Of a stretch of DNA of 64,000 nt, positions 9,522 to 62,702 are shown piece after piece; within the stretch, counting starts at the first letter, position 1, and each line of letters begins with the position of its first letter. The position numbers and the translations under genes were made by a program. Source of the stretch: Bacteroidia bacterium (GTDB taxonomy: Bacteria; Bacteroidota; Bacteroidia; UKL13-3); assembly GCA_025454875.1 (NCBI GenBank), contig JALONP010000002.1, forward strand, positions 62,001-126,000, written 5' to 3'. The notes under the pieces are model-generated. The model saw only the letters and a list, made by a program, of their open reading frames with translations, was not told the origin of the DNA and ran no database searches.

Positions 9522-9540
9522 CATTTATATATTTGAAAAC

Positions 9541-10800
9541 ATGGATTACCTCATCATTATTATTGGCAGCATTTTAATGTCGGCATTTTTTTCAGGGATG
9601 GAAATTGCCTTTATCTCTGCTAATAAATTGCTAATTGAACTCAAAAATAAACAAGGAAGTTTATCGGCACGTATCTTATCACCTTTTGTAAGTAACCCTT
9701 CACGCTTTATAAGCACCACTTTGGTTGGCAACAACATTGGGTTGGTTATTTATGGAATATACATGGCAAAGGTGCTCGATCCGCAAATTGGTGCGTGGTT
9801 ACCTGCTGCTGCTGATAACCGCTTTTTGCTGTTGTTTTTGTCGAGTATTTTGTCGACCGCATTGGTATTGGTAACGGGAGAGTTTATTCCCAAAGTACTT
9901 TTTCGCATTAACCCCGATATTATTCTACGTGTTTTGGCGGTTCCATTTTTGCTCACCTATTACTTGTTTTGGCCGCTGGTACATTTTATTACGTGGCTAG
10001 CCAAAGTATTACTCAACCGCTTGTTTCGGTTTAGGGTAGCTGAAACAACCCCAGTATTTAGCCGTGTGGATTTGGACCAATACATTGCAGATAGTGTTGA
10101 AGACCTTGAAGAGGATGCTGATGTAGATACCGAAATGTTTCGAAATGCGCTCGATTTTGCTAATGTAAAAGTGCGCGATTGCATGACTCCAAGAACGGAG
10201 CTTGTGAGCATTCACTTAGCTGCAGATGTGGAAGAGTTGTATCAAAAATTTGTAGCAACTGGCTTGTCAAAAATCTTAGTGCATCAGGGTAGCAGCGATC
10301 ACATAATTGGTTATGTACACCAAAAAGATGTATTTACCAAACCCCAAACCATTCGTTCGGTTTTAATCCCAATTGAAATTGCAACCGAAACCATGCCGGC
10401 AAATGAACTGCTCAATGTATTTACCCGCACACATAAAAGCATTGCATTGGTGGTAGATGAATTGGGCGTTACTGCTGGAGTTGTGACAATTGAAGACATT
10501 ATGGAAGAAATTTTTGGGGAGATTGAAGATGAGCATGATGTGGACCAACTCACCGAAAAAAAATTAGACGATCATACGTATTTGTTATCTGCCAGACTTG
10601 AAATAGATTACCTGAATAACAAATACGATTTGCAGCTACCCGAAGGTGATTACCAAACGTTGGGTGGATTTATTTTTGCGCAGCATGAAAATATACCAAC
10701 ACGTGGCGAAACAATTGTAATAGAGCCGTTCCGATTCACCATTATTTCAATTACCAATACACGCATTAACGAGGTGAAACTCGAACGCATTAGCTTGTAG
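9541..10800 (+). CDS. CNNM/CBS/CorC_HlyC-domain membrane protein (hemolysin family, GldE-like)
   Basis: 419 residues from the ATG at 9541. The in-frame Met at 9469 would overlap the small membrane gene and was rejected. Order: a DUF21/CNNM membrane domain (SAFFSGMEIAFISANK, four hydrophobic segments to ~170), a pair of CBS domains (~205-330, with VRDCMTPRTELV and SIALVVDELGVTAGVVTIEDI), the EEIFGEIEDEHD hinge, and a CorC_HlyC domain (YQTLGGFIFAQ...GETIVIEPFRFTI). The family covers Mg/Co efflux proteins. In Flavobacteriia the gliding protein GldE belongs here. Without gldD beside it, the GldE label is tentative. Confidence 0.88.
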   Translation: MDYLIIIIGSILMSAFFSGMEIAFISANKLLIELKNKQGSLSARILSPFVSNPSRFISTTLVGNNIGLVIYGIYMAKVLDPQIGAWLPAAADNRFLLLFLSSILSTALVLVTGEFIPKVLFRINPDIILRVLAVPFLLTYYLFWPLVHFITWLAKVLLNRLFRFRVAETTPVFSRVDLDQYIADSVEDLEEDADVDTEMFRNALDFANVKVRDCMTPRTELVSIHLAADVEELYQKFVATGLSKILVHQGSSDHIIGYVHQKDVFTKPQTIRSVLIPIEIATETMPANELLNVFTRTHKSIALVVDELGVTAGVVTIEDIMEEIFGEIEDEHDVDQLTEKKLDDHTYLLSARLEIDYLNNKYDLQLPEGDYQTLGGFIFAQHENIPTRGETIVIEPFRFTIISITNTRINEVKLERISL

Positions 10801-10805
10801 TTGCG

Positions 10806-11813
10806 TTAACTAAGCATCGGTGCGGCCTCTATGGGTTGGCCAAATGCTTCAGCAATTTCGGCTAAGGTATCAATTATATCTTGAGCATTATTGGCCGTTA
10901 CCAAACGCGTTCGGTAAGGTTTAAAGTTGGGCAGACCTTGGAAATAATGTGTGTAATGCCTGCGCATTTCTACAATACCTACCCATTCGCCTTTCCACTC
11001 AATTGACTTTTGCAAATGGGCGCTGCATACTTGAATTCGATTGGCCAAGGTTGGTTCTGGTAAATGGGTACCTGTAGCCATAAAATGTTTTACCTCATTA
11101 AAAATCCAAGGATAGCCGATTGCAGCTCGACCTATCATGATGCCATCAACCCCAAAACGATTGCGGTAGTCAAGAGCCTTTTCAGGGGAGTCAATATCAC
11201 CATTGCCAAAAATTGGAATATGAATACGGGGGTTGTTTTTGATGCGCGCAATTAATGTCCAATCAGCATCACCTTTATACATTTGTGCCCTTGTTCGGCC
11301 GTGCACAGTGAGTGCTTTAATTCCTACGTCTTGCAATCGCTCAGCTACCTCTTCTACATTTTTGCTGTCTTCGTCCCAACCCAATCGGGTTTTAACCGTT
11401 ACGGGTAAATTGGTTGAGCGCACCACAGCTTCGGTAACCTTTACCATTTTGGGTAAATCTTTTAAAATAGCTGCACCCGCGCCTTTGCACACCACTTTTT
11501 TCACTGGGCAACCGAAATTGATATCAACCAAATCAGGTTGAGCAGCATCCACTATTTGTGCAGATAAGCCCATTGATTCTTCATCACCACCAAAAATTTG
11601 AATTCCAATTGGCCGTTCAGAATCATAAATATCCAACTTCTGGCGGCTTTTAATGGCATTGCGGATTAATCCTTCAGACGATATAAACTCGGTGTACATT
11701 AAATCAGCACCGTTCTGTTTGCACACCGCCCTAAAAGGAGGATCGCTTACATCTTCCATCGGGGCGAGCAGCAGTGGAAAGTCGCCTAATATTATGTTCC
11801 CAATTTTTACCAT
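10806..11813 (-). CDS. dusB: tRNA-dihydrouridine synthase, DusB type
   Basis: 335 residues from the ATG at 11813. The longer reading from 11855 adds 14 residues that would overlap the divergent gene's start. It reduces uridine to dihydrouridine in tRNA with FMN/NADPH. Motifs: FPLLLAPMEDVSDPPFRAVC (FMN site), DINFGCPVKKVVCKGAG with the catalytic Cys, PVTVKTRLGWDEDS, LTVHGRTRAQMYKG, IFGNGDIDSPE and GIMIGRAAIGYPWIF. The C-terminal helical domain has RRHYTHYFQGLPNFK. It converges tail to tail with the GldE-like gene with only 5 bp between stops. Confidence 0.93.
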   Translation of the reverse strand: MVKIGNIILGDFPLLLAPMEDVSDPPFRAVCKQNGADLMYTEFISSEGLIRNAIKSRQKLDIYDSERPIGIQIFGGDEESMGLSAQIVDAAQPDLVDINFGCPVKKVVCKGAGAAILKDLPKMVKVTEAVVRSTNLPVTVKTRLGWDEDSKNVEEVAERLQDVGIKALTVHGRTRAQMYKGDADWTLIARIKNNPRIHIPIFGNGDIDSPEKALDYRNRFGVDGIMIGRAAIGYPWIFNEVKHFMATGTHLPEPTLANRIQVCSAHLQKSIEWKGEWVGIVEMRRHYTHYFQGLPNFKPYRTRLVTANNAQDIIDTLAEIAEAFGQPIEAAPMLS

Positions 11814-11841
11814 TGTATATTGCGGGCACAAAAATAGGCAA

Positions 11842-12771
11842 ATGTTGGAAACCAAACCGCTAAACCCATTCCTTTTCTTTATTACCCGCTTGCTTATGCT
11901 TATTGGGATGATGATTGTATTTGGATCATTAGCCTACATGGTTGGGGTTTACGGGAGTAAATGGCTATTCGGAATTGATTTGATGCAATCTCCTTACTTG
12001 TTAACTGATTTGGTCAACAATCCGCAGGTATTGCCTGCTGCTAAGTGGATGCAGGTAACGTTAAGTACCGGTTTATTATTGATACCAGCTTTGGTGTTTC
12101 CCAATGCATTGCAAGAGTCTACGTTTACTTTTAACCGATTAGCTGGTATGCCTCAAACCAAATGGTTTGTATTTGCAATTGTGTTGTGGTTGGTAAGCAT
12201 ACCTATGGTTGGCGCATTGATAACATGGAATCAACAAGTAGAACTTCCATTACAGTGGCAAGCTTTGGAACAGCAATTAAAAGCATCGGAAACGGCCGCC
12301 AATCAAATGACCAAGGCCTTTTTACAAGGCGATTCTATGGGCACCTTTTGGGTAAATTTGTTTGTAATGGCTTTACTGCCCTCTGTTGCCGAAGAACTTT
12401 TTTTTAGAGGAGCCCTACAACAATTGGTGATGCGCGTAATGCCAAATATGCATCTGGCAATTGTGTTGGTAGCAATTGTATTCAGCAGTTTTCACATGCA
12501 GTTTTATGGATGGGTACCTAGGTTTGTATTGGGTGTTTTTTTAGGATATGTATTTGCTTGCAGCCAATCAATGTGGCCTGCCATTTTTTTCCATTTCATT
12601 AACAATGCATTGTCGGTTACGGTATTGTATTTTCACCTCGATGAACGGATATACTGGATGTCGGAAACTTATGTTTTTCCAATGGTTATAACCATTTTAT
12701 CAGCAGCAGGGGTGATGGTATTATTGGGTTGGTTATACCGCAACCGAACGCTTACCACAAATGCAAGCTAA
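11842..12771 (+). CDS. CPBP-family intramembrane glutamic protease
   Basis: 309 residues from the ATG at 11842. An upstream Met at 11653 lies inside divergent dusB and was rejected. Several hydrophobic segments surround the conserved protease motifs: AEELFFRGALQQL (EExxxR, catalytic Glu pair), SSFHMQFYGWVPRFVLGVFLG (FxxxH) and IFFHFINNAL (HxxxN). This is the Abi/CAAX-processing (Rce1-like) family. In bacteria the substrates are mostly unknown. The start is 28 bp from the divergent dusB start. The stop overlaps the next gene by 11 nt. Confidence 0.88.
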   Translation: MLETKPLNPFLFFITRLLMLIGMMIVFGSLAYMVGVYGSKWLFGIDLMQSPYLLTDLVNNPQVLPAAKWMQVTLSTGLLLIPALVFPNALQESTFTFNRLAGMPQTKWFVFAIVLWLVSIPMVGALITWNQQVELPLQWQALEQQLKASETAANQMTKAFLQGDSMGTFWVNLFVMALLPSVAEELFFRGALQQLVMRVMPNMHLAIVLVAIVFSSFHMQFYGWVPRFVLGVFLGYVFACSQSMWPAIFFHFINNALSVTVLYFHLDERIYWMSETYVFPMVITILSAAGVMVLLGWLYRNRTLTTNAS

Positions 12772-48744: not shown

Positions 48745-49020
48745 GCATAGTTAAACATCGCAACTTGTCATTTCATTTGTTAACATTCACAAGGCTCTCC
48801 TGTACCTATGACCTAATTTAATGCAAATCGTTTATAATGGCATTCACCTTTTACTACCCAAACTTGAACTACTTTGAGGCTGATTTAATTATATTGTTTT
48901 TTAGATTTCGAATGAGGTTTGATTAGTCAACTGGCCTCAAAATTAGTTATGTGGAAGAAGGCAGTTCCGTAATTATTTTTATATTTGACCTTTAAAGGAC
49001 AAGACCAAAAATAGTAAACA
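48745..49020. other. Spacer before the defence operon
   Basis: 276 bp. The first 200 bases show nothing clear. The last 45 hold a -7-like box and a palindrome, described separately. No terminator hairpin is obvious after the T9SS gene. Confidence 0.5.
48980..49002 (+). promoter_or_regulatory. Promoter -7 box overlapped by a palindromic operator
   Basis: TATATTTG at 48980-48987 fits the Bacteroidota -7 consensus TAnnTTTG, but no TTG stands 19 bases upstream. From 48985 to 49002 runs TTGACCTTTAAAGGACAA, a palindrome with one mismatched pair (core CCTTTAAAGG perfect). It ends 18 bp before the XRE start codon. This is the expected place for an autorepressor site of the XRE protein. Confidence 0.6.
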
Positions 49021-49302
49021 ATGTTAGGTGAAAAACTAAGAGAATTGCGAGAAGCCATAGGGTTACTACAAAGAGAAGTTGCTGCTGACTTACAGGTTGA
49101 CACTGCATACATTAGTAAAATGGAGCACAATGAAAAACCTGTTAGCCGTACTCACCTTAAAAAATTGTCCAAGTTATATGGTATATCTGAAAGCGATTTG
49201 ATACCTATTTGGCTTGCAGACAAAGTGCTGCAACTGGTAGAAAACGAAAAATTTTCAGTTGAGGCTTTGGAAATGGCTTTAAATAAAGTGAAACAAAAGT
49301 GA
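49021..49302 (+). CDS. XRE-family helix-turn-helix regulator (controller-like)
   Basis: 93 residues. A helix-turn-helix spans about 5-60 (LRELREAIGLLQREVAADLQVDTAYISKME, with LQREVAADLQ and TAYISKME as the two helices). A short C-terminal helical tail (VEALEMALNKVKQK) may dimerise. Size and position at the head of a restriction-type operon match C (controller) proteins that delay nuclease expression. The stop overlaps the next start (GTGA). Confidence 0.88.
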   Translation: MLGEKLRELREAIGLLQREVAADLQVDTAYISKMEHNEKPVSRTHLKKLSKLYGISESDLIPIWLADKVLQLVENEKFSVEALEMALNKVKQK

Positions 49303-52151
49303 ATGAATTAACCCCATATCAAGCAAAATACATTGCATACGAACTTACTAGACGCTTCCCATCGGGTAGCAGCGAGAAGTTTAATGTTGCTTTGATGGAT
49401 GCTCAGGTTGACTTAAACCCACATCAGGTGGAATCAGCTTTGTTTGCTTTTAAGTCTCCCCTTTCCAAAGGTGCAATTTTGGCTGACGAAGTTGGATTAG
49501 GTAAAACAATTGAAGCCGGAATTTTACTTTCTCAACTTTGGGCTGAACGAAGAAAAAAACTTTTAATTATTTGTCCTGCCAACCTTAGAAAACAATGGAG
49601 CCAAGAATTATATGATAAGTTCTTCTTAGACTCAATCATACTTGAAAACAAGAACTTCAGTGAGTTTGTAAAATCGGGCAAGCGAAACCCGTTTGACCAA
49701 AATAAAATCATCATTTGCTCTTATCAGTTTGCAAGAGCTAAGGCAGACTTAATGCAATTAATTTCCTGGGACTTGGCAGTTGTGGATGAGGCCCACCGTT
49801 TACGGAATGTTTACAAGCCGACCAATAAAATAGGAAACGCAATTAAAGAAGCCTTATCACATTCAAGAAAAGCGTTATTAACTGCTACCCCTTTGCAAAA
49901 CTCGCTACTTGAATTATACGGGCTTGTAAGCATTATTGATGAACACACTTTTGGTGACATCAAAAGTTTCAGAAGTCAATTTTTAAGAACAGTTGAAGGA
50001 GAAAATTATCAGGACTTAAGAGACCGTTTGAAATCGGTTTGCATCCGCAATCTTCGCAGACAAGTTCAGGAATACATTCGTTACACCAACCGAATTCCGC
50101 TTACTATAAAGTTTGAGCCATCGGATGATGAACAGAAACTCTATGAAGCAGTAAGTGATTATCTGCAAAAGGAGTTGTTGTATGCCTTGCCTGCCAGTCA
50201 AAGGCATTTAATGACTCTGATTCTCAGAAAACTTTTGGCTTCATCTTCCTTTGCGATTGCAGGAACATTGAATAGCCTGATTAAGAAATTACATCAGGTT
50301 ATTAAAGACCACCAAAAAGTGAGTGTGATTGATGAAGTTTCAGAAGACTATGAACTTTTTGAAGAACAAGCCGAAGAATGGGAAGAGGATGAACAGACAG
50401 ATGATAATTCTTTAACCGAAACAGATATTGAATCTATAAAACTTGAAATAACAGAACTAGAGAAATTCAGAGATTTAGCGGAATCCATTAAACATAACGC
50501 CAAGGGAGAAAAACTATTGACCGCTTTGAAGGAAGGCTTTACTAAAATGGATAAACATGCCAATAAGAAAGCCATCATCTTCACAGAATCTACCCGAACG
50601 CAGAATTACCTTTTCAATTTGCTGAGTGAGCAATATCCCAACAAGATAGTTTTGTTCAATGGTTCAAACAATGATGAAACATCCAACAAGGTTTACAAAA
50701 GCTGGTTGGAGAAAAACAGAGGAACTGATAAAGTAACTGGTTCTCCAACGGCTGATAAACGGGCTGCATTGGTTGAGTATTTCAGAAATGAAGCCACCAT
50801 TATGATTGCTACCGAGGCAGCAGCAGAAGGTATCAACTTGCAATTCTGCTCATTGCTTATCAATTATGATTTGCCTTGGAATCCGCAACGGATCGAACAG
50901 CGTATTGGCCGTTGCCATCGCTACGGACAAAAATATGATGTGGTGGTAGTGAATTTCCTGAATGTGAAAAATGCTGCCGACATTCGGGTATTTCAATTGC
51001 TCGATGAAAAGTTCAAACTATTCAGTGGTGTATTTGGTGCCAGTGATGATGTGTTGGGTAGTATTGAATCGGGAGTTGATTTTGAAAAACGAATTGGCGA
51101 AATCTATCAGAAGTACAGAACTGAGCAGGAAATCATTGAACAGTTTGATTTGCTTCAAAAAGAATTAGACGAGCAAATCAACAGCAAAATGCTCTCAACC
51201 CGTGAAACGCTTTTAGCAAACTTTGATGATGAAGTATTGGACAAATTAAAAATCCGTTTGTCTGAAAGCAGAGAATACATCAATAAATACGAACAATGGC
51301 TTTGGGCAGTTACCAAATTCGAATTGAACGGTGCTGCCACTTTCAATGATAAAAACCTAAGTTTCAAACTCAAAAAACAGCCTTATTCAGAAGCAACTTT
51401 TCCAACAGAATCTTTCAAATTGGGAAAACCAAATACTGAAGCTCACGTGTATCGCATGGGGCATCCCTTGGCGCAAACCGTTTTAGAAAAAGCTAAAGAG
51501 AAAGAATTGCCTGAAGCATCACTCACTTTTGACTTAACAGGTTATGAGGGAAATGTTTCAATACTCGATGAACTCAAAGGAAAACAAGGCTGGCTGAGTG
51601 CTTTGGCTGTAAGTGTGGACTCTTTTGAATCATCTGACTATGTGATTGCATTTGGTCAAACAGACGATGGCAAACCTTTAAATGAGGAGCAAGCCAAAAG
51701 GTTACTCACTTTGCCTGTGAAACAAGCAAATGGAAACGCACCATGCATTGATGAAAAACTAGTTGCCCTTCAAACAGAAAGTCATATGGATGCTTTACTG
51801 AAATCTATCTCAGAAAGGGACAACAACTATTTGAAATTTGAGACAGAGAAACTCACCAAATGGGCTGAGGACAGAATGAATGCTGCGGAATTAGCCATCA
51901 AAGAAACCAAGGCTAAAATAAAAGAGTTAAACCGGGAAGTACAGAAAACCACTGACCCGATGGCTCAATTGAAACTGCAACAACAATTGCAGGAAGAATC
52001 AAGGAAACAGAAAAAACAAAGGCAGGAAATTTTTATCGTGGAAGATGAAATTGCAGAAATGAGAGATAAAATGATAGCTGATATACAAAAGCGAATGAAA
52101 CAAGAGATTAACAAAACACATTTGTTTACCATTAACTGGAAATTAGTATAG
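49299..52151 (+). CDS. SNF2/RapA-type helicase of the defence operon
   Basis: 950 residues from GTG. RecA1: ADEVGLGKT (Walker A, Lys69), DEAH at 163-166 and TATPLQN (~195). RecA2: FTESTRTQNYL, IATEAAAEGINLQ and QRIGRCHRYGQ at 534-544. These are Swi2/Snf2 superfamily 2 motifs; such proteins move along double-stranded DNA rather than unwinding it. The two lobes are split by an acidic insert (~345-400, many Glu/Asp). A long C-terminal region ends in a coiled coil (~850-940). No nuclease motif seen. DISARM DrmD is also of this helicase class. Followed after 2 bp by the methyltransferase gene. Confidence 0.9.
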   Translation: MNELTPYQAKYIAYELTRRFPSGSSEKFNVALMDAQVDLNPHQVESALFAFKSPLSKGAILADEVGLGKTIEAGILLSQLWAERRKKLLIICPANLRKQWSQELYDKFFLDSIILENKNFSEFVKSGKRNPFDQNKIIICSYQFARAKADLMQLISWDLAVVDEAHRLRNVYKPTNKIGNAIKEALSHSRKALLTATPLQNSLLELYGLVSIIDEHTFGDIKSFRSQFLRTVEGENYQDLRDRLKSVCIRNLRRQVQEYIRYTNRIPLTIKFEPSDDEQKLYEAVSDYLQKELLYALPASQRHLMTLILRKLLASSSFAIAGTLNSLIKKLHQVIKDHQKVSVIDEVSEDYELFEEQAEEWEEDEQTDDNSLTETDIESIKLEITELEKFRDLAESIKHNAKGEKLLTALKEGFTKMDKHANKKAIIFTESTRTQNYLFNLLSEQYPNKIVLFNGSNNDETSNKVYKSWLEKNRGTDKVTGSPTADKRAALVEYFRNEATIMIATEAAAEGINLQFCSLLINYDLPWNPQRIEQRIGRCHRYGQKYDVVVVNFLNVKNAADIRVFQLLDEKFKLFSGVFGASDDVLGSIESGVDFEKRIGEIYQKYRTEQEIIEQFDLLQKELDEQINSKMLSTRETLLANFDDEVLDKLKIRLSESREYINKYEQWLWAVTKFELNGAATFNDKNLSFKLKKQPYSEATFPTESFKLGKPNTEAHVYRMGHPLAQTVLEKAKEKELPEASLTFDLTGYEGNVSILDELKGKQGWLSALAVSVDSFESSDYVIAFGQTDDGKPLNEEQAKRLLTLPVKQANGNAPCIDEKLVALQTESHMDALLKSISERDNNYLKFETEKLTKWAEDRMNAAELAIKETKAKIKELNREVQKTTDPMAQLKLQQQLQEESRKQKKQRQEIFIVEDEIAEMRDKMIADIQKRMKQEINKTHLFTINWKLV

Positions 52152-52153
52152 GC

Positions 52154-55100
52154 ATGACAAACTACGATAAACTCATCAATACACTCAAGGAAGTGTTCAT
52201 GCTTGATAAAGCGGAACTTGATTTTGGTATTTACAGAATCATGAACCAAAAGCGGAAAGATATTGAACAGTTTTTAGAGGTGGACTTAGTTCCGCAAGTA
52301 CATAAAGTATTGTCTGAAAGCCTTTCGGTGGACAAAAAGGCTTTGCAAAAGGAATTAGATGATGCCATAAAAGCCGCACAGACTTTAGGAGCAGACCCAA
52401 ACACTTTGCCTAAAGTGCAGGAATTAAAAAAACGTTTGGGTGAAGCTGCCGATATGGTTGCTATTGAAAACGAAGTTTTCTCACTGCTTGCCAATTTCTT
52501 TAAACGCTATTTTGATAATGGCGATTTCATTAGTATGCGTAGGTACAAAAAAGATGTGTATGCCATACCCTATGAAGGCGAAGAAGTAAAGCTGCATTGG
52601 GCCAATGCCGACCAATACTACATTAAAACCAGCGAATACTTTAAAGTTTATCGTTTTAAGTTGAGCAATGGCAAAACGGTTTGTTTTGAATTGGTAGAAG
52701 CCAGCACCGAACAAAATAACAACAAAACACAGGGCGATAAAGAAAGACGATTTGCCATTTACACAGAAAAGGTTTATGAAACCATAGGTGATGAATTTAA
52801 AATTTACTTTACCTACGAGCCAACCGACAAAAAAGTAAAACAAAGTGATTTACTGGAACAGGCTTTTGATGCCGTAAAAACCCAAATACCACAAGATTTT
52901 TTGGAGTTGCTTAGTTTGAAACCAACAGAAAAAGACAAGCAAAGAACCTTGCTGCAAAAGCACTTGAACGATTATACAGCCCGTAACACCTTTGACTACT
53001 TTATACATAAAGATTTGGGTGGTTTCCTTAGCCGTGAATTAGACTTCTATATTAAAAACGAAGTGCTGTTTATTGACGACCTGAACACCCGTGACGAACA
53101 GGAATTTTTAAAACAACTGAGCAAGATAAAAGCTATTAAAAAGATTGGTGAAAAGATTATCACTTTCCTAGCACAGCTAGAAAACTTCCAAAAAAAATTG
53201 TGGCTGAAAAAGAAAATGGTGGTGGAATGCAACTACTGCATTACGCTTGACCGTGTGCCAAAGGATTTGTACCCCGAAATACTGAATAGCCAAGCCCAAC
53301 TACAGGAATGGATTAAACTCTTTGCTATTGACGAAATAAAAGCCGAAAAAGCAGGTGGCTTGTTTATGGAAGATAAAGTGGGCTTTAGCATCCCGCTTAC
53401 GCTGGAGTTTTTAAACCAAAATCAATTCTTGGTTTTAGATACTGCCTTTTTCTCTGAAGCCTTTAAATGGCAGTTGATTAGCAGCATTGAGAATTTTGAT
53501 GAGCAGTGTGATAGTTGGTTGATTAACTCAGACAATTTTCAAGCTTTAAATTTACTAAAGGCCAGGTTTAATCAACAAGCAAATACGATTTATATAGATC
53601 CGCCATATAATACTAGTGCATCGGAAATTGTCTATAAAAATAATTACAAACACTCCTCCTGGCTATCTCTTATGCATGATAGGTTAGTAATTGGCCGAGA
53701 ATTTTTGAAAGAAGATGGAATAAAAACCGTTACAATTGATGATGTTGAAGTAAAAGAACTTCATTTTTTATTGGAGTCGATTTATTCAAGAGAAAATGTT
53801 GCAGGCTTAATAGCAATTAGAATTAATCCTTCTGGCAGACCAACGACAGATGGATTGGCCTTATCACATGAATATGCCATAATGGTTAAAAACTCGTACA
53901 AGTCAAAAGTTATTAAAATCGACCGTTCTGAAGAACAGAAAAAAAGGTTCAACTTAACCGATAAAGATGGAATTTATGAGCAACGTAACTTTCGTAGGGA
54001 GGGCTCAAACTCAAATAGGGAAGACGGTAAAAGGCAATGGTATCCAATCTACGTTAATGTGAAAGATTTAAAGTTACGTGTACCCGAAATGAAATGGAAT
54101 GATGACACAGAGCTATGGGCAATACTAGAAAAGCAAAATGAAGATGAACAAATCATTTACCCTATAAATGATGAAGGAGTTGAGAAAAACTGGAGATGGA
54201 GTTGGGAGAATGTCAAGAGGGACTATTCACAGTTCTATGCCAAATATCAGGAGGATAAAATACAGGTGTATTATAAGTATAGACCAAATGAAGAAGGTAC
54301 CACACCTTTAACGTTTTGGGCTGATTCAAAATACTCTGCTACTGAACATGGCACAAAACCACTGAAAGATTTATTCCCCATAAACAATTTTTCTTATCCC
54401 AAATCAATTTATGCGGTAGAAGATACTTTGCTCATAAGCGGATTAAAGAAAAGAGACGGCTTTGTCCTTGACTATTTTTCAGGTTCTGGAACTACTGGTC
54501 ATGCTGTTATAAACCTTAATAGGATTGATAACGGTAAACGGAAATGCATTCTTGTAGAAATGGGGGAATATTTTGATTCAGTCACCAAACCCCGCATCCA
54601 AAAAGTAATTTACAGCAAAGACTGGAAAGATGGCAAACCTGTAAGCCGTGAAGGCATCAGCCATTGCTTTAAATATATGCGTTTGGAGAGCTATGAAGAT
54701 ACACTCAACAACTTAGCTTTAAAACAAACTGAAACCCAACAACAAGCTTTGGCAATGAACCCAGCGTTTAAAGAGGGCTACATACTCAACTATATGTTGG
54801 ATGTAGAAGCCAAAGACAGTTTGCTCAATCTGGAGTGGTTTGTCAACCCGTTTAACTGCTACCTGAACATCACCAAAAACAACGAACTACTACCCACCAA
54901 AATAGATTTGGTAGAAACCTTCAATTACCTGATAGGGCTGGTGGTAGAAAGTTATGCTAAACCCAAAGAAGGCTATGTGGTGCTAACCGGTAAAAACTTA
55001 GCCGGAGAAAAAATACTGGTCGTATGGCGAGATTGCACCCAACACAACAGCACCGCATTGAACCAATTTTTAGAAAAAAGCAAATACAACCCACTCGATG

Positions 55101-55225
55101 CTGAATTTGACCGCATCTACGTAAATGGCGACAATAACGTAGAAAACCTAAAAACTGGAGACGAACGCTGGAAAGTGGTTTTGATTGAGGAAGAATTTGG
55201 GAAGAGAATGTTTGAAAATATTTAA
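52154..55225 (+). CDS. Mod-like beta-class DNA adenine methyltransferase
   Basis: 1023 residues. The catalytic DPPYNT (motif IV) is at 482-487 and the SAM-binding FSGSGTTG (motif I) at 775-782. Motif IV before motif I marks the beta class, to which type III Mod subunits belong. The ~290 residues between them should hold the target-recognition domain. The first ~450 residues are a large extra region of unknown function (ELDFGIYRIMNQKRKDIEQFL at the start), and ~170 residues follow motif I. DPPY points to N6-adenine methylation. Length exceeds a typical type III Mod (~600-700). Confidence 0.9.
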   Translation: MTNYDKLINTLKEVFMLDKAELDFGIYRIMNQKRKDIEQFLEVDLVPQVHKVLSESLSVDKKALQKELDDAIKAAQTLGADPNTLPKVQELKKRLGEAADMVAIENEVFSLLANFFKRYFDNGDFISMRRYKKDVYAIPYEGEEVKLHWANADQYYIKTSEYFKVYRFKLSNGKTVCFELVEASTEQNNNKTQGDKERRFAIYTEKVYETIGDEFKIYFTYEPTDKKVKQSDLLEQAFDAVKTQIPQDFLELLSLKPTEKDKQRTLLQKHLNDYTARNTFDYFIHKDLGGFLSRELDFYIKNEVLFIDDLNTRDEQEFLKQLSKIKAIKKIGEKIITFLAQLENFQKKLWLKKKMVVECNYCITLDRVPKDLYPEILNSQAQLQEWIKLFAIDEIKAEKAGGLFMEDKVGFSIPLTLEFLNQNQFLVLDTAFFSEAFKWQLISSIENFDEQCDSWLINSDNFQALNLLKARFNQQANTIYIDPPYNTSASEIVYKNNYKHSSWLSLMHDRLVIGREFLKEDGIKTVTIDDVEVKELHFLLESIYSRENVAGLIAIRINPSGRPTTDGLALSHEYAIMVKNSYKSKVIKIDRSEEQKKRFNLTDKDGIYEQRNFRREGSNSNREDGKRQWYPIYVNVKDLKLRVPEMKWNDDTELWAILEKQNEDEQIIYPINDEGVEKNWRWSWENVKRDYSQFYAKYQEDKIQVYYKYRPNEEGTTPLTFWADSKYSATEHGTKPLKDLFPINNFSYPKSIYAVEDTLLISGLKKRDGFVLDYFSGSGTTGHAVINLNRIDNGKRKCILVEMGEYFDSVTKPRIQKVIYSKDWKDGKPVSREGISHCFKYMRLESYEDTLNNLALKQTETQQQALAMNPAFKEGYILNYMLDVEAKDSLLNLEWFVNPFNCYLNITKNNELLPTKIDLVETFNYLIGLVVESYAKPKEGYVVLTGKNLAGEKILVVWRDCTQHNSTALNQFLEKSKYNPLDAEFDRIYVNGDNNVENLKTGDERWKVVLIEEEFGKRMFENI

Positions 55226-55228
55226 GAT

Positions 55229-58039
55229 ATGGTAGGTACAAAATGGTATAAATGTGATTTGCATTTGCATACACCCGCAAGTAAATGTTTTCACGACAGA
55301 GATACTGTTACTCCTGAACAATGGGTACAAGAAGCTATTGATAAAGGTTTAAACTGTGTTGCTGTTACCGACCATAATTCTGCGGAATGGGTAGAATTAA
55401 TTCAGGAGGAAGCTTCAAAAAAGGGTCTAAATGTTTTTCCAGGTGTAGAACTCACTTGTAGTGAAGCTAAGGTTCACATACTTGTTTTGTTTGAAATTGG
55501 AACAAATAGAAGAACCATTGAGGATTTCATAACTCTTTGTAGAATTGATAATACAAAATTTGGGGAACAGGATGCTCATTCTCCATTGTCGGTAGAGGAA
55601 GTAATCAAAGAAGCATCTAACAAGAACGCCTTGTGCATTCCTGCACATATTGACGAATATGCAGGTTTAGGGCAAGTCGCTCATGGCTTGAGGGAAAAAC
55701 TTTTTCAATCAGATATTTTTTTAGGAGTTCAAGTTGTCCACAAAGAATTTTTGGTTGAAGAAGGAAAATTTAAAAAACAAGAAGCTCTAATTTCAATCAA
55801 TAAATTTAGAGGTGCAACTGACGAAGAAATTACTTCGGGTAAACTAAAGATTTCTGAAGAAAAATTAAAGGAATGGCGTTCACCAGTTCAACAATCAATA
55901 AAACACAGCAAAGCAATTTTAACTTTTTCTGATAATCCTCATTCTGAATTTAATTCAAAACATGGTTTATGGGGAATGGGTAGAAGATTTACTTGGATTA
56001 AAATGGATCAGAAACCAAGTTTAGAAAGTTTAAGACAGGCAATGCTGTTACATCAGTTCAGAATTAAAAATGATTTTGATTGTCCTGACCAACCCTATTC
56101 AATACCTGACACTTGGATTCAAAGCATAACAATTAAAGAAACAGAACTTTCAAAAAGTGGCAATGATGTTTTGATAAACTTTAATCCACAAATGAATACT
56201 ATTATTGGAGGAAGAGGAAGTGGCAAATCATCCATACTACAATTCCTCAGAGGAGTGTTTGAAAAAGGTCATGAAATTGATACTTTAACCACAATTAAAA
56301 CAGAGTTCTCTAATTTCTTCAAAGTTAAAGACAAGAAGAAGCAAGGGGTGCTTAAAGCTGCTTGTAGCATTGAAATACTAATTAACAGAAGAGACGAATT
56401 ATATAAAGTTTTGTTTAAACAGGAGACACCTATCAAGCATAAAACACAAATACTAAAATTCAATGAGATAAGCGGTTACTTTGATGTGGAGCAAAATTTG
56501 TCATTTATGAAAATTCTTGACTTCGATATCTTTTCTCAAAAGCAGATTTATGAAATTGCAAATAATTTAAACTCTTTAAGAGACCGAATTGATGTTTCTT
56601 CTTTTGATATTTCAAAACAACAAGATGTTTTAGAGAATAAAAAAGCGGAATACATTAAACAGTCTTCCGAAATAAGAGCACTTAAATTAAAAGTTTCAAA
56701 AAAAGACGTTCTTAAATCCGAGATTCAGGATATTGAAAATAAAATCAATAAAGTAAAGGAAATTGGAATTGAAAATGAACTTAAAAAAATTCAAAATTTT
56801 AATTCAGAGAACATTCAATTTATAAATTTTAGAGTTGGGATTGAATCTGAACAAGGAAAATTTGATTCTCTAACGGAATCTGTTCGTGGATTAAAATTAA
56901 AACCTGAAGCTTACACTGAAAGCTCAAGGATTATTTTGGAAGGTTTAATTAATAATGTGAATAGTGAAATTGCAAAAATTGCTGTTACATTAGAAAAGAC
57001 TAAGTCTGATTTTGTAAAACTGAATACATTTTTAGAAGCAGAGTTGAGTGCTAATAAATGGAGTAAGGATAAAAAGGAAACAGAAGAATCATTTGAAAAA
57101 AAGAAAGAAACACTAATAGGCCAGGGAATAGTTAAAATTGAAGAAATTGAAGCAGATATTAAACTACTTGCAATTAAAAAAAGTGAATTAGAATCAATTG
57201 AAAAAATTGAAACTGAAATTACAGAAAAGGAAGCCGCATTAGCCAGTATTAAAGAACTCTATATTACTGAAAGATTAAAACTAAGTACTGTTAGGAAAGA
57301 GTTTTTAGAAGGGTTGCTTTATGATGGGAAGGTACGAGCTAAAGTTAACGGGTGTAAAGACTTTGAAAACTTAGAAGAACAAATCAGGTTAGTTTTAAGT
57401 AGTCCAGAATCATTCGATAAAGATGTTGCGACAATGATAGAGTATTGGTCGGGGCCTGATGTTAAAAGGGCTAACAAGGGTGTTTTTGATATTATCGTTG
57501 GAATACATAACGGTACAAATACAGGTGCTGATTTTGATAAAAGATTTATTACAAAAGTGAAAGGTCTAAATGGAGAGCAATTGGATTCTTTTGATTTAAT
57601 GTTTCCTGAAGATGTCATTCAATTAGAGTACAAAACAAATGCAGGTGTTTGGAAAGCTTTATCAAATGCATCCGCTGGACAAAAAACAGCGGCTATACTA
57701 ACATTGATTTTATCCGAAGGAAACAAACCATTAATTCTTGACCAACCAGAAGACGATTTAGACAATTATTTAATTTATGACTTGGTAGTTGACCAATTAA
57801 GAAAATCAAAAGAATCAAGACAAATAATTACTGTTACGCACAATGCGAATATTCCAGTAAACGGAGATAGTGAAGTAATAATTGTTATGGATTCGGAAAC
57901 AAAACATTTAAGCCCCAAACTAATAGGTACTATTGAAGATGATGAAATAAAAAAAGCTGTTTGCTCAATTATGGAAGGTGGTACAGATGCTTTTAACATG
58001 CGTTCTAAACGTTATCAAAATGTAAAAACTAATGGCTAA
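55229..58039 (+). CDS. PHP phosphoesterase fused to an SMC/ABC-type ATPase
   Basis: 936 residues. PHP domain first: HLH (His12, His14), VTDHN (46-50), PGVELTC with Glu74, His83, AHIDEY (His140) and SDNPH (Asp235, His238). The usual metal ligands are all present, so it should be active. Then an ATPase head: Walker A GGRGSGKS (327-334), a long coiled coil (~430-720), signature ASAGQK (814-819), Walker B LILDQPEDD (Asp838, Glu841) and H-loop THN (His871). This resembles Rad50/RecN-like defence ATPases; from memory, databases call similar proteins TrlF family. More AT-rich than neighbours (e.g. 11 G/C in 56761-56820). Overlaps the next gene by 8 nt. Confidence 0.88.
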   Translation: MVGTKWYKCDLHLHTPASKCFHDRDTVTPEQWVQEAIDKGLNCVAVTDHNSAEWVELIQEEASKKGLNVFPGVELTCSEAKVHILVLFEIGTNRRTIEDFITLCRIDNTKFGEQDAHSPLSVEEVIKEASNKNALCIPAHIDEYAGLGQVAHGLREKLFQSDIFLGVQVVHKEFLVEEGKFKKQEALISINKFRGATDEEITSGKLKISEEKLKEWRSPVQQSIKHSKAILTFSDNPHSEFNSKHGLWGMGRRFTWIKMDQKPSLESLRQAMLLHQFRIKNDFDCPDQPYSIPDTWIQSITIKETELSKSGNDVLINFNPQMNTIIGGRGSGKSSILQFLRGVFEKGHEIDTLTTIKTEFSNFFKVKDKKKQGVLKAACSIEILINRRDELYKVLFKQETPIKHKTQILKFNEISGYFDVEQNLSFMKILDFDIFSQKQIYEIANNLNSLRDRIDVSSFDISKQQDVLENKKAEYIKQSSEIRALKLKVSKKDVLKSEIQDIENKINKVKEIGIENELKKIQNFNSENIQFINFRVGIESEQGKFDSLTESVRGLKLKPEAYTESSRIILEGLINNVNSEIAKIAVTLEKTKSDFVKLNTFLEAELSANKWSKDKKETEESFEKKKETLIGQGIVKIEEIEADIKLLAIKKSELESIEKIETEITEKEAALASIKELYITERLKLSTVRKEFLEGLLYDGKVRAKVNGCKDFENLEEQIRLVLSSPESFDKDVATMIEYWSGPDVKRANKGVFDIIVGIHNGTNTGADFDKRFITKVKGLNGEQLDSFDLMFPEDVIQLEYKTNAGVWKALSNASAGQKTAAILTLILSEGNKPLILDQPEDDLDNYLIYDLVVDQLRKSKESRQIITVTHNANIPVNGDSEVIIVMDSETKHLSPKLIGTIEDDEIKKAVCSIMEGGTDAFNMRSKRYQNVKTNG

Positions 58040-61000
58040 ATTAAGTTCATCACTCGTACTCAATAAATACATCCTAAATCTGTTTGGTGTAACAGACTTA
58101 GAGGCATTGTCATCGGATTTAAAAGATTCGGCTCTGGAAGGTTATGATGAAAACAATGTCTCTCATTTCCATCATGCTTTGGTAGCAAGGTTTTACAGCA
58201 ATGCAAATTTGCCAAAAGAATTATTGCTTCAATACGATCAAAATATTTTCACACACACCCAAACTATTTCAGAGAAAAGAACAGAACCCATCAAATGGAA
58301 ATACTTTCAGTATTTGGCATTGCTTTTTACTGAAATTTATTTAGATAAATACTTCACTGATAAAACAGTCCTACAAAGTGAATTAAACACCTTTTTAGAC
58401 TTCAATCACGGTAAGCATGGTAATGATTTTAAAGTTATCACTGAATTCAAATTAGAAACTATTGTTAACGATTTAAACAAGCTTGCTTATTGGAATGCAA
58501 CAGGTTCAGGTAAAACCTTATTGATGCATGTAAACATTTTGCAGTATAGGTATTATTTAAGCCAACATAACCTTGAAAAATCGCTGAACAGAATTATTGT
58601 GCTAACTCCCAATGAAGGACTTTCTAAACAGCATTTAAAGGAGTTTGTCCAGTCAGGTATGGAGGCCGAATTGTTTGATAAAACAGGAGGTTCTTTGTTT
58701 TCAGGTCAAAAAATTGAAATCATCGACATTCACAAACTCGAAGAAACAAGCGGCAATAAAACGGTTGCAGTTGAAGCATTTGAAGGTAACAACTTGGTTT
58801 TAGTAGATGAAGGACACAGAGGGGCTGGTGGTACAGAATGGAAAGACAAACGAAATCGTTTGTGTGAAACAGGTTTTTCATTTGAGTATTCAGCAACTTT
58901 TGGTCAGGCGGTACATGCTTTGTCAGGTGCAAAACAAAAAGCATTGATTGATGAATATGGTAAGGCAACATTGTTTGACTATTCCTATCGCTATTTCTAT
59001 AATGATGGTTATGGAAAAGATTATCAGATTTTAAACCTTAATGAACAATGGCATGAACCTGGAAAAGAAGAACGTGTGGTTCTTTATCTAACTGCCAGTT
59101 TACTTTCGTTTTATGAACAGTTATTAGTTTTCAAAGAGCATGGTAAAGCTATAGAACCATTTTTGATTGACAAGCCATTGGCAATTTTTGTAGGTGGTAA
59201 AGTTACTAAAAACATCAGCAAAGAAACGGCTTCCGATGTAGTTGAAGTATTAAAATTCATTGAGGCATTTGCAAAGAATGACACACAATCCATTGAACGA
59301 ATTAAATTATTGTTAGAAGCCAAAGATGGTTTGAACAATGAATTAGGGCATTCCATTTTTAAAAATGCTTTTAAAGAAATCCGTAAATCGGGTAAATCTG
59401 CACAGTCGGTTTTTCAAGATGTTCTGAGGGAAGTTTTCAATTCAGATGTTGCTGGTGCTTCACTGCATATTGACAACCTTAAAGGACAAGACGGTGAAAT
59501 TGGTTTACGCATTGGTAACGGTGAGTATTTTGGTGTTATCAATGTTGGTGACGACAAAGGTTTATTGAAAATATGCGAAGCACACAAAATGAACATTGGT
59601 GAAAGAGATTTTTCCAGTTCATTATTTCACGACATCAACAGCAAAAGCAGTAAAGTAAATATCCTGATTGGTTCAAAAAAATTCAGTGAAGGTTGGAGCA
59701 GTTGGCGAGTAAGCACAATGGGCTTGTTGAATATTGGTCGAGGCGAAGGTTCTGAAATTATTCAGCTTTTTGGTAGAGGTGTACGATTGAAAGGCTATAA
59801 ATTTTCATTGAAACGGAGCACTGCTTTAGATGCCAGTTTAAAACCCGATTATATTCCTGAAGTATTGCCGATTCTTGAAACGCTAAATATTTTCGGTTTA
59901 AGAGCTGATTATATGCAGCAATTCAAAGATTACCTTGAAGAAGAAGGCTTGCCAACGGATTCTGATTTTGAAAAAATCACTGTTGACATTCTGCCAACAA
60001 TTTCTGATTTATCGGAGAAAAAACTTAAATATATCAAGGTTAAAGATGGCTCCAACTTTAAGCGTGATGTTTTGGTGGATGCTGTAATTACAGAAAAAGT
60101 TCCGCCTGTATTAGTGGATTGGTATCCGAAAGTTCAGGTATTAAAAAGCTCTAGAACAACAAATGTATCAACGATAGTAACAGTTGAACAAGGTAAACTT
60201 GAAAATATTCATATTGCATTCTTAGATTGGAATAAGATCTATTTTGAAATACAGAAGTTCAAAAATGAACGCAGTTGGTATAATGTAAACCTTTCAATTG
60301 AAGCATTAAAAGATATTCTTCAAAGTTCGGAATGGTACACCTTACTAATTCCTTCAAGCGAACTTGAATTAACTGATTACAGTAAAGTAAAGCTATGGCA
60401 TGAATTGGCTCTTACACTTTTGAAATCATTTGTAGAAAGACTTTACAACTATCAGAAAAACAAGTTTTACAGCGACAAAATAGAAGTTGCTTTTATTGAT
60501 AGCACACATCCAAATTTTGAAGCCGAATACAACTTTCTCGTTAAAAAGACAGAGGACAGGCTAATCGGAAAGATTAAAGAATTAAAGGAAGTAGTTCGCA
60601 AAAAAGAATTTCAGGAAAACTTTAAAATCGACAACGACTTTGAGGCTTTGTATGCCAATCTTCATCTTTATCAGCCTTTAATTTATATTGACAAAGGCAG
60701 ATATGAAGAAGTAATAAAAATACAACCAGTTCCTTTGAATAAAGGCGAAAGAGATTTAGTTGAAGACCTAAAACAATATTTTGACACCAATACAGAGTTT
60801 TTTAAAGACAAACAACTTTACTTGCTGAGAAATATGAGTAAAAAAGGTATTGGCTTTTTTGAGGCAAACAACTTTTTCCCTGACTTTATCCTTTGGCTTG
60901 TCATAGGCAACAAGCAATACGTTTCATTTATTGATCCAAAAGGGCTTAGACAAATTCAAGGTTTGACAGACCCTAAAATTCAATTACATAAAACTATCAA

Positions 61001-61196
61001 GACAAGTATTCAACAAAAATTGAATGACCCGGACATTGAACTAAATTCATTCATTATTTCTAATACACCATACAACCAATTGACACATTGGAAAGGACAA
61101 GAAAGCATTGAGGACTTTAATTCAAATCATGTATTGTTTCAAAGGGAACAAAGACAAAGTTACATTCAGAAAATTATAAATAAACAAGTGAAATAA
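58032..61196 (+). CDS. Res-like DEAD/DEAH helicase with C-terminal PD-(D/E)XK nuclease
   Basis: 1054 residues. Helicase motifs: Walker A ATGSGKT (156-162), DEGH (259-262), SATF (~288), SKKFSEGWSSWRV and QLFGRGVRL (578-586). This set matches type III Res subunits. Near the C terminus PDF (Asp951) followed by FIDPKG (Asp968, Lys970) fits a PD-(D/E)XK nuclease core, where type III Res proteins also carry theirs. With the Mod-like protein it forms the restriction half of the operon. Last gene of the overlapping series; an 85-bp gap follows. Confidence 0.88.
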   Translation: MAKLSSSLVLNKYILNLFGVTDLEALSSDLKDSALEGYDENNVSHFHHALVARFYSNANLPKELLLQYDQNIFTHTQTISEKRTEPIKWKYFQYLALLFTEIYLDKYFTDKTVLQSELNTFLDFNHGKHGNDFKVITEFKLETIVNDLNKLAYWNATGSGKTLLMHVNILQYRYYLSQHNLEKSLNRIIVLTPNEGLSKQHLKEFVQSGMEAELFDKTGGSLFSGQKIEIIDIHKLEETSGNKTVAVEAFEGNNLVLVDEGHRGAGGTEWKDKRNRLCETGFSFEYSATFGQAVHALSGAKQKALIDEYGKATLFDYSYRYFYNDGYGKDYQILNLNEQWHEPGKEERVVLYLTASLLSFYEQLLVFKEHGKAIEPFLIDKPLAIFVGGKVTKNISKETASDVVEVLKFIEAFAKNDTQSIERIKLLLEAKDGLNNELGHSIFKNAFKEIRKSGKSAQSVFQDVLREVFNSDVAGASLHIDNLKGQDGEIGLRIGNGEYFGVINVGDDKGLLKICEAHKMNIGERDFSSSLFHDINSKSSKVNILIGSKKFSEGWSSWRVSTMGLLNIGRGEGSEIIQLFGRGVRLKGYKFSLKRSTALDASLKPDYIPEVLPILETLNIFGLRADYMQQFKDYLEEEGLPTDSDFEKITVDILPTISDLSEKKLKYIKVKDGSNFKRDVLVDAVITEKVPPVLVDWYPKVQVLKSSRTTNVSTIVTVEQGKLENIHIAFLDWNKIYFEIQKFKNERSWYNVNLSIEALKDILQSSEWYTLLIPSSELELTDYSKVKLWHELALTLLKSFVERLYNYQKNKFYSDKIEVAFIDSTHPNFEAEYNFLVKKTEDRLIGKIKELKEVVRKKEFQENFKIDNDFEALYANLHLYQPLIYIDKGRYEEVIKIQPVPLNKGERDLVEDLKQYFDTNTEFFKDKQLYLLRNMSKKGIGFFEANNFFPDFILWLVIGNKQYVSFIDPKGLRQIQGLTDPKIQLHKTIKTSIQQKLNDPDIELNSFIISNTPYNQLTHWKGQESIEDFNSNHVLFQREQRQSYIQKIINKQVK

Positions 61197-61281
61197 TCCC
61201 CGCACACTTTTTACACTCCTTGTAATATTATGCTAATACTATGTAGTAACTAATCTCCATGAATCTAATGCCAGTTTAATA

Positions 61282-62232
61282 ATGAAATACTGTACTCCAG
61301 ACGAAAGGTGGGAAATTTTTGGTGCTAGCTGTTTCGAAATGTACCTTGAGAAGTATGTTATCATTTCTAAATTCCATTTAATGGTTCCAAAAGATATCCT
61401 TGAAGGATATAAAACAGCCGAATATATGATGTGCTTTGCCTACTACCATTATCCTATTTATGATGAAGCCTTATCTAAAGTTTTAAAGTTGATTGAATTA
61501 GCAGTCAAACTAAGATGCAAGGATTTTGGAATAAGTACCAAAGGCGATGTTAAACTTAACAAGTTAATAAATGAACTTAGTAAACGAATTCCTTCTGTTA
61601 AAGTTAATATGAGGCTTCATGCAGCAAGACGAATCAGGAATTACTTGATGCACCCCTCACAAAATAATTATGCCGGGGGTATTTTACGAGCAAGTATGGT
61701 GGCTCTTGCAAACCTAATTAACGAAATTTTTCTACCCCCAAATTTCTTCATTGATACAAAAAAGGAAGTTGAACGGATTAAAGATCTATTAATCCCTTTT
61801 GATAATGGAACTTATGTCTTAGAACGGGACAACAAAAGATTTTTGATATATAAGGTAAAGTGTTTTGAAGCAATCCCACATAATAATGTTTGGAACTACT
61901 TTTTAGTTTGCTATCCAGTGTTGAAAGATGTCTATCAAGAAATCGTAGAACATAAAATAAGTGGAGTTATTAAATTAGTAGTCAAAGACATTAATATAGA
62001 AAATAATATAATAACTGCAATTAATAAAGACGATGAACAATTTATACGAATTAGCATTAATAACAATCCAACCAATGTAACCTCTCTAGAGAATTATTCT
62101 CATCAACTATCAAAGTATAGTGCCGATACATTGATGTTATACGAAACAATAATTCAAGACTTAATTGACAGAGAAATTTCAGAGTTTAATTACAACAACT
62201 ATAAATCAATTGATTACACAAACTTACTTTAA
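61282..62232 (+). CDS. Protein with a HEPN-like R-x4-H motif
   Basis: 316 residues, no signal or membrane segment. Residues ~60-155 are helical and include RRIRNYLMHP, giving Arg119-x4-His124, the catalytic motif of HEPN RNases, preceded by a helix with LKLIELAVKLRC. The C-terminal ~150 residues form an alpha/beta region (VIKLVVKDINIENNIITAI) of unknown type. HEPN proteins are frequent in defence islands as RNA-cutting toxins or as structural helpers. It lies 85 bp after the Res-like gene and converges with the GIY-YIG gene (4-bp overlap). It may have its own promoter. Confidence 0.6.
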   Translation: MKYCTPDERWEIFGASCFEMYLEKYVIISKFHLMVPKDILEGYKTAEYMMCFAYYHYPIYDEALSKVLKLIELAVKLRCKDFGISTKGDVKLNKLINELSKRIPSVKVNMRLHAARRIRNYLMHPSQNNYAGGILRASMVALANLINEIFLPPNFFIDTKKEVERIKDLLIPFDNGTYVLERDNKRFLIYKVKCFEAIPHNNVWNYFLVCYPVLKDVYQEIVEHKISGVIKLVVKDINIENNIITAINKDDEQFIRISINNNPTNVTSLENYSHQLSKYSADTLMLYETIIQDLIDREISEFNYNNYKSIDYTNLL

Positions 62233-62510
62233 CTCCGATCTAGACCTTCTGTAGGAAGTTCAGGGTATTTTTTTAAGTTTTCAATAAACACCTTCGATTT
62301 CATCTGTTTGATATGCTTCTCAATAGTATACGCTTGGGTTGAATGAAGGTTAGAAATAACAAGATACAATTCCCATGGACTCCCTCTTGCAGTAAATGAG
62401 TCTTTGTTAACAATAGAATTGTGTTCAAGCAATCTCTGTTCAACATCATCCGTTGAACCAATACAAAATTTATTGATTTTAGCGGAATATAAAATGTAAA
62501 CACAAAACAT
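62229..62510 (-). CDS. Small GIY-YIG-domain protein with altered YIG motif
   Basis: 93 residues from the ATG at 62510. A further in-frame ATG at 62528 lies inside the tRNA terminator stem and is less likely. CVYILYSAKINKFCIGSTDD and VEQRLLEHN match the UvrC-N/YhbQ-like family of single-domain GIY-YIG proteins, with the catalytic Arg (EQR) and a late Glu (IEKHIKQ). The second Tyr (YIG) is Cys here, so activity is doubtful. Such genes often sit beside tRNA genes in Bacteroidota (from memory). Confidence 0.85.
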   Translation of the reverse strand: MFCVYILYSAKINKFCIGSTDDVEQRLLEHNSIVNKDSFTARGSPWELYLVISNLHSTQAYTIEKHIKQMKSKVFIENLKKYPELPTEGLDRS

Positions 62511-62545
62511 ATAAAATAAAAAAGCCACTCGGACTGAGTGGCTTT
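62508..62545 (-). terminator. Terminator of tRNA-Asn
   Basis: Stem AAAGCCACT/AGTGGCTTT with a 7-nt loop (62521-62545), followed on the minus strand by TTTATTTT. It directly abuts the CCA end of the tRNA. Confidence 0.85.
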
Positions 62546-62621
62546 GGCTCCCTGACCTGGGCTCGAACCAGGGACCTAGTGATTAACAGTCACTCGCTCT
62601 AACCAGCTGAGCTATCAAGGA
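62545..62621 (-). tRNA. tRNA-Asn (anticodon GTT), CCA encoded
   Basis: The minus strand folds as a standard tRNA: acceptor TCCTTGA/TCAGGGA (one G-U pair), D-arm GCTC-AGCTGGTTA-GAGC, anticodon arm AGTGA-CTGTTAA-TCACT with anticodon GTT, T-arm CCTGG-TTCGAGC-CCAGG, discriminator G and an encoded CCA at 62545-62547. Confidence 0.96.
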
Positions 62622-62655
62622 ATTTGTTCCGAATTTACTTTAGTCGAAGTTTGTT

Positions 62656-62702
62656 GTCACTCGCTCTAACCTCCCGATAGCTATCGGGAGAGCTATCAAG
62701 GA
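62656..62702 (-). pseudogene. 5' half-copy of tRNA-Asn with a palindrome in the D-loop
   Basis: Repeats the tRNA-Asn sequence from the acceptor (TCCTTGATAGCTC) to the first part of the anticodon stem (GGTTAGAGCGAGTGAC). In place of the D-loop AGCT it has the 18-bp palindrome TCCCGATAGCTATCGGGA. The 3' half is absent, so it cannot be a working tRNA. Confidence 0.85.
62672..62689. repeat. Perfect 18-bp palindrome TCCCGATAGCTATCGGGA
   Basis: Lies within the tRNA-Asn half-copy. A near copy is at 14535-14552 (two differences). Confidence 0.8.

Follow-up and report, generated by a model that had tools for sequence, protein, structure and literature searches.

In type III restriction-modification (RM) systems, Mod and Res methylate and cut DNA, and an effector gene may also lie inside an RM locus, as does prrC, which is placed between modification and restriction genes. 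PrrC, embedded in the type IC locus ecoprrI, fires upon inhibition of the enzyme, and PrrC and PARIS are regarded as guardians of RM (PMC12707154; for PARIS, PMC9122126). Defence genes embedded in other defence operons have been collected as Hma-embedded candidates (HEC; PMC10855318) and as PDC, by guilt-by-embedding (Payne et al. 2024, preprint 10.1101/2024.01.29.577857, as far as it is recounted in PMC12988326). Ppl is a 3'-5' single-stranded DNA exonuclease that is inhibited by nucleoside triphosphates and becomes active when nucleotides are depleted and 3'-OH ends are present (review PMC12904381). Here we describe a five-gene operon of a Bacteroidia bacterium (assembly GCA_025454875.1, 2.98 Mb) that lies at 49021-61196 on the forward strand of a 64,000-nucleotide stretch of contig JALONP010000002.1 (the window) and encodes an XRE regulator, a SNF2 translocase, Mod, a PHP-SMC protein and Res. 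We consider it probable that this is a type III-like RM operon with a fixed core (XRE, SNF2, Mod and Res) that carries an exchangeable cassette between Mod and Res as a second-line nuclease.

A conserved core and its exchangeable cassettes

The five open reading frames (ORFs) are co-directional and uninterrupted. The regulator gene (49021..49302; 93 amino acids [aa]) is overlapped by 4 bp by the SNF2 gene (49299..52151; 950 aa), which is followed after 2 bp by the gene for an extended type III-like Mod (52154..55225; 1023 aa) and, 3 bp further on, by that for the PHP-SMC protein, the embedded cassette (55229..58039; 936 aa); the gene for the Res-like protein (58032..61196; 1054 aa) overlaps the latter by 8 bp. 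The original prediction, made from the DNA letters alone, had placed these ORFs and their motifs correctly and had read them as one transcription unit with more than plain Mod and Res, and these claims held, as overlaps or gaps of 2-3 bp run across all five genes and SNF2, XRE and PHP-SMC accompany the pair. Profile searches, a check that it had proposed, assigned (with Pfam, PADLOC and NCBIfam) HTH_3, a DrmD-like SNF2, MTase_III, TrlF_fam_ATP and REase_III.

A scan by Mod alignment, with one genome per species, confirmed 385 relatives. The annotated set comprises the best 79 distinct loci among these, the window and two more loci taken from related genomes. Res follows Mod in all 73 evaluable loci and SNF2 is present in 55 of 71, so that Mod and Res make up an invariant pair that SNF2 usually joins. 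The helicase-bearing type III-like core was found in Bacteroidota, Bacillota, Planctomycetota and Pseudomonadota, and of 395 Bacteroidota genomes 27 carry Mod relatives (E<=1e-60) and 6 carry PHP relatives (E<=1e-50). Conjugative IncF plasmids of Klebsiella and E. coli carry an insert-free HTH-SNF2-Mod-Res set between psiAB and traM, the Aeromonas plasmid pE31A has HTH-SNF2-Mod-AAA-DUF4276-Res in the layout of the window, Conchiformibius has the order Mod-Res-SNF2, and haloarchaeal plasmids carry Mod-Res without a recognised SNF2. Nothing points to carriage as phage cargo, since none of the viral contigs encodes a relative of Res or PHP and phage records hold only the methyltransferase core of Mod.

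The PHP-SMC gene behaves differently from the core. Among the annotated loci, four have it beside Mod (the window, L015, L018 and L081, which ends at a contig end), and in 19 further Bacteroidota Mod loci, drawn regardless of context, inserts were common and PHP was found in none. The claim of a fixed five-gene system therefore fails, because by far the most homologous operons lack PHP, among them that of the same-genus neighbour, Bacteroidetes bacterium UKL13-3. Of the two modules that the original prediction regarded as additions, SNF2 proved to be a recurrent core partner, but the PHP-ATPase is not a fixed component; similarly, Mod, SNF2, Res and PHP do occur together in L015 and L018 (and in L081 as far as the contig end), but no second instance of the exact five-gene set was found.

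We scored inserts, defined as gaps of over 150 bp, in the 52 loci with SNF2, Mod and Res. Twenty-five were insert-free, and a gap was present at the Mod-Res border in 23, at the SNF2-Mod border in 14 and at both in 10; the space between SNF2 and Mod is a second slot. By Pfam and PADLOC, the inserts are genes of defence type and encode GmrSD, AAA_21 with DUF4276 (HEC-01A/B), AAA_15 with an unknown partner, YhcG PD-(D/E)XK, PDDEXK_3, HNH, Abi_C, AbiJ_NTD4, Fic, a polyvalent-protein kinase, Schlafen AlbA_2, a DUF4143 ATPase, an HTH-M78 peptidase and 23S-IVP. In L015 and L018, PHP stands behind an AAA_21-DUF4276 pair, and thus two cassettes are stacked; the 8-bp PHP-Res overlap is common to these two loci and the window. 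The model of DUF4276 (mean predicted local distance difference test [pLDDT] score of 83) is similar to that C-terminal part of OLD proteins which bears TOPRIM (Foldseek E 2e-4, probability 0.99-1.0, with a TM score of only 0.35-0.42), so that the AAA_21-DUF4276 pair looks PARIS/OLD-like as judged from the model. The Mod-Res slot of L080 holds an 844-aa protein (L080:13534-16068) without a Pfam or NCBIfam match, and this protein and the 200-245-aa partners of AAA proteins are, by their embedding, candidates for unnamed defence proteins.

Cassette swapping is recent and precise at the gene borders. Among the window, L012, L013 and L016, the Res genes share 96-98% identity and group as a single clade (SH-aLRT support of 100), yet the cassettes are PHP in the window, AAA_21 with DUF4276 in L012, GmrSD with AAA_21 and a 245-aa protein in L013 and a 648-aa AAA protein in L016, and L014 has the same core without an insert. 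Homology with the relatives ends at 55225 and resumes at 58030-58032, and the DNA homology blocks, with limits taken from L013, are 48956-52150, 52154-53668, 54527-55225 and 58032-61201; homology is therefore broken precisely where SNF2 stops and Mod starts, where Mod stops and where Res starts, and it is also broken around the recognition region of Mod. When "no insert" is mapped as a label on the Res tree, 15 changes are required, and well-supported branches force 13 of these. In UKL13-3 (L009/L017), the place of PHP is taken by AAA_21 with DUF4276, and the SNF2-Mod slot holds a PDDEXK_3 gene. The swapped target-recognition region of Mod (53669..54526 on the forward strand, with limits that vary by about 50 bp between comparisons) has lost DNA homology to L009, L013, L015, L016 and L018 while both of its flanks align (73-88%), and it is retained in L012 and L014.

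The encoded proteins, the operator and the setting

The PHP-SMC protein passes the model TrlF_fam_ATP (NF045780) with 562 bits over aa 3-930, against a cut-off of 350. With the NCBIfam model Ppl_antiphage it scores 350 bits, below the cut-off of 1000, and is thus a relative of Ppl and not Ppl itself. Its PHP ligands (HxH at 12 and 14, DH at 48-49, E74, H83, H140 and SDNPH at 235-238) and ATPase motifs (Walker A GGRGSGKS at 327, SAGQ at 815 and LDQPED) are intact and are conserved in L015 and L018, as is the PHP part in L081. The protein is a predicted DNA/RNA phosphoesterase. The PHP-SMC gene of L015 (L015:14841-17651), 92-99% identical to that of the window, has an in-frame stop at codon 784, before the C-terminal half of the ATPase, which may reflect decay or an assembly error. 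A second TrlF-family protein (579 bits) is encoded on another contig of the window genome (L011, contig C8, ORF 9738-12638, reverse strand); it has lost most of its PHP ligands (H49Y, H83N and H140S) and adjoins a 465-aa partner (ORF 8136-9533, reverse strand). A neighbour of 415-434 aa likewise accompanies four divergent homologues of TrlF (L114-L117) from other Bacteroidota, which suggests a separate two-gene system. The E. coli plasmid p779-2 (L099:5284-12832) links TrlF to another RM-like pair; here the TrlF gene comes after those for an HsdR-like helicase (EcoAI-type) and for an N-6 methylase (MAD2/HsdM-like), beside plasmid replication genes.

Mod is a beta-class N6/N4 methyltransferase (Pfam N6_N4_Mtase, 1.4e-19; PADLOC MTase_III PDLC03646, 3.8e-233, 775 bits), in which DPPY (482) precedes FSGSG (775) with the recognition region between them, the order of the beta class. 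The 644-aa EcoP15I Mod could be aligned only to aa 450-802 of the 1023, and the match to the EcoP15I and Mbo45V Mods is limited to aa ~450-860, leaving the first ~440 aa as an extra region. Res, an SF2 helicase with a C-terminal PD-DxK (forward strand), matches ResIII (Pfam, 1.8e-10) and REase_III (PADLOC PDLC03654, 8.7e-215, 714 bits) and has the motifs NATGSGKT, DEGH, SAT, QLFGRGVR and PD(950)...DPK(968-970); its profile had no match among Protein Data Bank (PDB) sequences at E 0.001. Because the EcoP15I Mod aligns only in part and Res lacks a PDB match, we use the label type III-like. Two tandem Mod paralogues with differing recognition regions, followed by a single Res, make up a dual-specificity version at L010/L055:4870-10868.

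The SNF2 protein, which starts at a GTG codon, is of the SNF2/RapA type and has a complete helicase set (DEVGLGKT, DEAH, TATP and QRIGRCHR; Pfam SNF2-rel_dom 7.6e-38, Helicase_C 1.2e-20), and its nearest solved structures are those of RapA (2.8e-43). The best PADLOC/NCBIfam model is DrmD_b, with 693 bits below the cut-off of 950; a second DrmD comparison gave 290 bits, below 610, and the BrxH and HmaA models are matched as well. SNF2 is not confined to this Mod: a 51%-identical copy on Rhizobium plasmid p7 (L111:11808-21136) belongs to a set of HTH-SNF2, a short 674-aa Mod, a DUF262 (GmrSD-type) gene and a DEAD/DEAH helicase, and by this sequence comparison the module combines with other type III-like pairs.

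The XRE regulator matches HTH_3 (Pfam, 7.7e-12) and the PADLOC model Control_protein (8.6e-10), in line with its resemblance to RM control proteins, and plasmids of Klebsiella, Aeromonas and Rhizobium likewise have an HTH gene ahead of SNF2. In an alignment of the window with five relatives, the sole well-conserved stretch upstream of the regulator gene (48980..49004, forward strand) was TATATTTG overlapping an inverted repeat, which in the window is TTGACC-N6-GGACAA (48985-49002), one mismatch from TTGTCC-N6-GGACAA. The repeat is perfect (TTGTCCT-N4-AGGACAA) in L009, L014 and L015. The -7 promoter consensus of Bacteroidota is TAnnTTTG, and TATATTTG fits this element. Scans with promoter and terminator consensus sequences did no better than on shuffled sequence, and the call of a promoter/operator is made because of the comparative alignment, not the scans. 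By analogy with controller-type RM systems, binding of XRE to the palindromic operator and autoregulation are a natural inference.

The G+C content is ~38% in the SNF2 gene, ~31% in the PHP gene and ~34% in the Res gene. A tRNA-Asn gene lies near the operon in the window, and the operon of UKL13-3 is at another genomic place; the window flanks are 257 kb apart in the same-genus genome, so that a simple chromosomal empty site is not demonstrable. The tRNA-Asn flank (window 62509-62702) is tandemly repeated beside tRNA-Asn in the same-genus genome (L106:7116-10905), with about 7 copies spaced ~410 bp apart and about 9 spaced 80 bp apart. A 316-aa ORF that begins 85 bp past res (61282-62232) is possibly a further accessory gene; it had no Pfam, PADLOC or NCBIfam match, and its sole plasmid relative is in Hymenobacter (31%).

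Proposed mechanism and its alternatives

We propose that Mod, whose target region is swapped between relatives, would methylate host sites, whereas Res, acting with Mod and perhaps aided by the SNF2 translocase, would cut unmodified incoming DNA, and that XRE would repress its own promoter via the palindromic operator and so time expression. The PHP-SMC protein would be an independently evolving second-line nuclease, co-expressed with the RM core and perhaps held by it, in a placement like that of PrrC. Its ATPase/coiled-coil part would silence the PHP nuclease until an infection signal arrives, upon which the activated protein would degrade DNA; the candidate signals are either the DNA 3' ends and depleted nucleotides reported for Ppl or, on the model of PrrC, an inactivated RM complex. 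Several points weigh against this proposal. As the window protein is not Ppl, the biochemistry of Ppl may not carry over, and its structure model, built on a three-sequence alignment, has a pLDDT of 46. SNF2 is missing in 16 of the 71 evaluable loci, and thus the core can work without it. Further, TrlF homologues also occur away from the core, two of them, at 38-39%, without Mod or Res of this family nearby, so that the cassette may act alone without RM sensing.

These two homologues favour the view that PHP-SMC is a passenger, that is, a stand-alone Ppl-like anti-phage gene parked for co-expression and unlinked to the RM proteins, as do the E. coli plasmids with TrlF beside other RM-like genes and the mechanistic diversity of the inserts. 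However, the same two gene borders have received inserts repeatedly, and ATPase-nuclease cassettes recur at the Mod-Res border in distant phyla, suggesting selection for position; we therefore regard this view as possible, albeit doubtful. The tight operon with its overlaps, the joint presence of PHP, Mod and SNF2 in L015, L018 and L081 and the identical 8-bp PHP-Res overlap in three loci would suit an integrated five-component system, with SNF2 as the sensor, Mod as the marker of self and the PHP-ATPase and Res as obligate joint effectors. Such a system is improbable, because PHP is missing from nearly all homologous operons, including all 19 of the other Bacteroidota Mod loci, and unrelated genes take its place where Res is 96-98% identical. 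The fixed five-gene reading is thus replaced by a testable one, that of a widespread core whose gene borders collect defence effectors.

Descent of the locus from DISARM, HMA or BREX, to which the scores of SNF2 with the DrmD models and its matches to BrxH and HmaA might point, is very improbable. The DrmD scores are below their cut-offs, a search of the genome for DUF1998/MZB (DrmA/DrmB), with positive controls, gave no match and none was found among the operon proteins, DUF499 of HmaC (PF04465) had no match in the genome, and the lone PglZ match in the genome is a 518-aa frame on another contig, with no BrxC among the operon proteins. We accordingly rejected a filing under any of the three, and the original prediction was right to set the operon apart from DISARM and BREX. 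An extension of the core-and-cassette proposal, which we hold to be rather unlikely, is that the SNF2-Mod and Mod-Res borders are a general effector port, at which plugged nucleases, kinases, Fic and Schlafen proteins would share a signal from the RM core, for example loss of SNF2-Mod-Res. If so, the core would be a sensor hub for interchangeable abortive-infection effectors, PHP-SMC being one of them. For the core-and-cassette proposal itself, the near-identical operons with different cassettes and the insert-free L014 provide a natural swap series that bears on whether embedded effectors sense RM failure.

Relation to described systems

A search of the open-access literature found no named SNF2-Mod-Res(-PHP) system, and a name given elsewhere is possible. 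Like type III RM systems of the EcoP15I type, the operon has adjacent Mod and Res, a beta-class methyltransferase with a central target-recognition domain that is homologous to the EcoP15I and Mbo45V Mods, and a Res with SF2 helicase motifs and PD-DxK; it differs in the added SNF2, XRE and ~440-aa N-terminal region of Mod and in its variable cassettes. With DISARM it shares a SNF2 protein of the DrmD_b group beside a methylase, but DrmA, DrmB and DrmC are absent and the DrmD score (693 bits against 950) falls short. As in Ppl and TrlF, a PHP nuclease is fused to an SMC-like ATPase, and the protein passes the TrlF model; however, Ppl is a single-gene system (PMC12904381), whereas the window protein is embedded in an RM operon.

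The position of the effector gene inside an RM operon, here between Mod and Res, is that of PrrC in EcoprrI, and relatives of the operon hold a PARIS/OLD-like pair of an ATPase and a TOPRIM-like protein in the same slot; in contrast to PrrC and AriB, which cut tRNA, the window effector is a predicted phosphoesterase of DNA or RNA. Embedding has already been described, and every protein of the operon matches an existing model, so that the building blocks are already catalogued. As with HEC and PDC, defence genes are inserted in a defence operon, and HEC-01A/B itself occupies the slot in relatives, but the host operon is here of the SNF2-type III kind and the cassette of the TrlF type.

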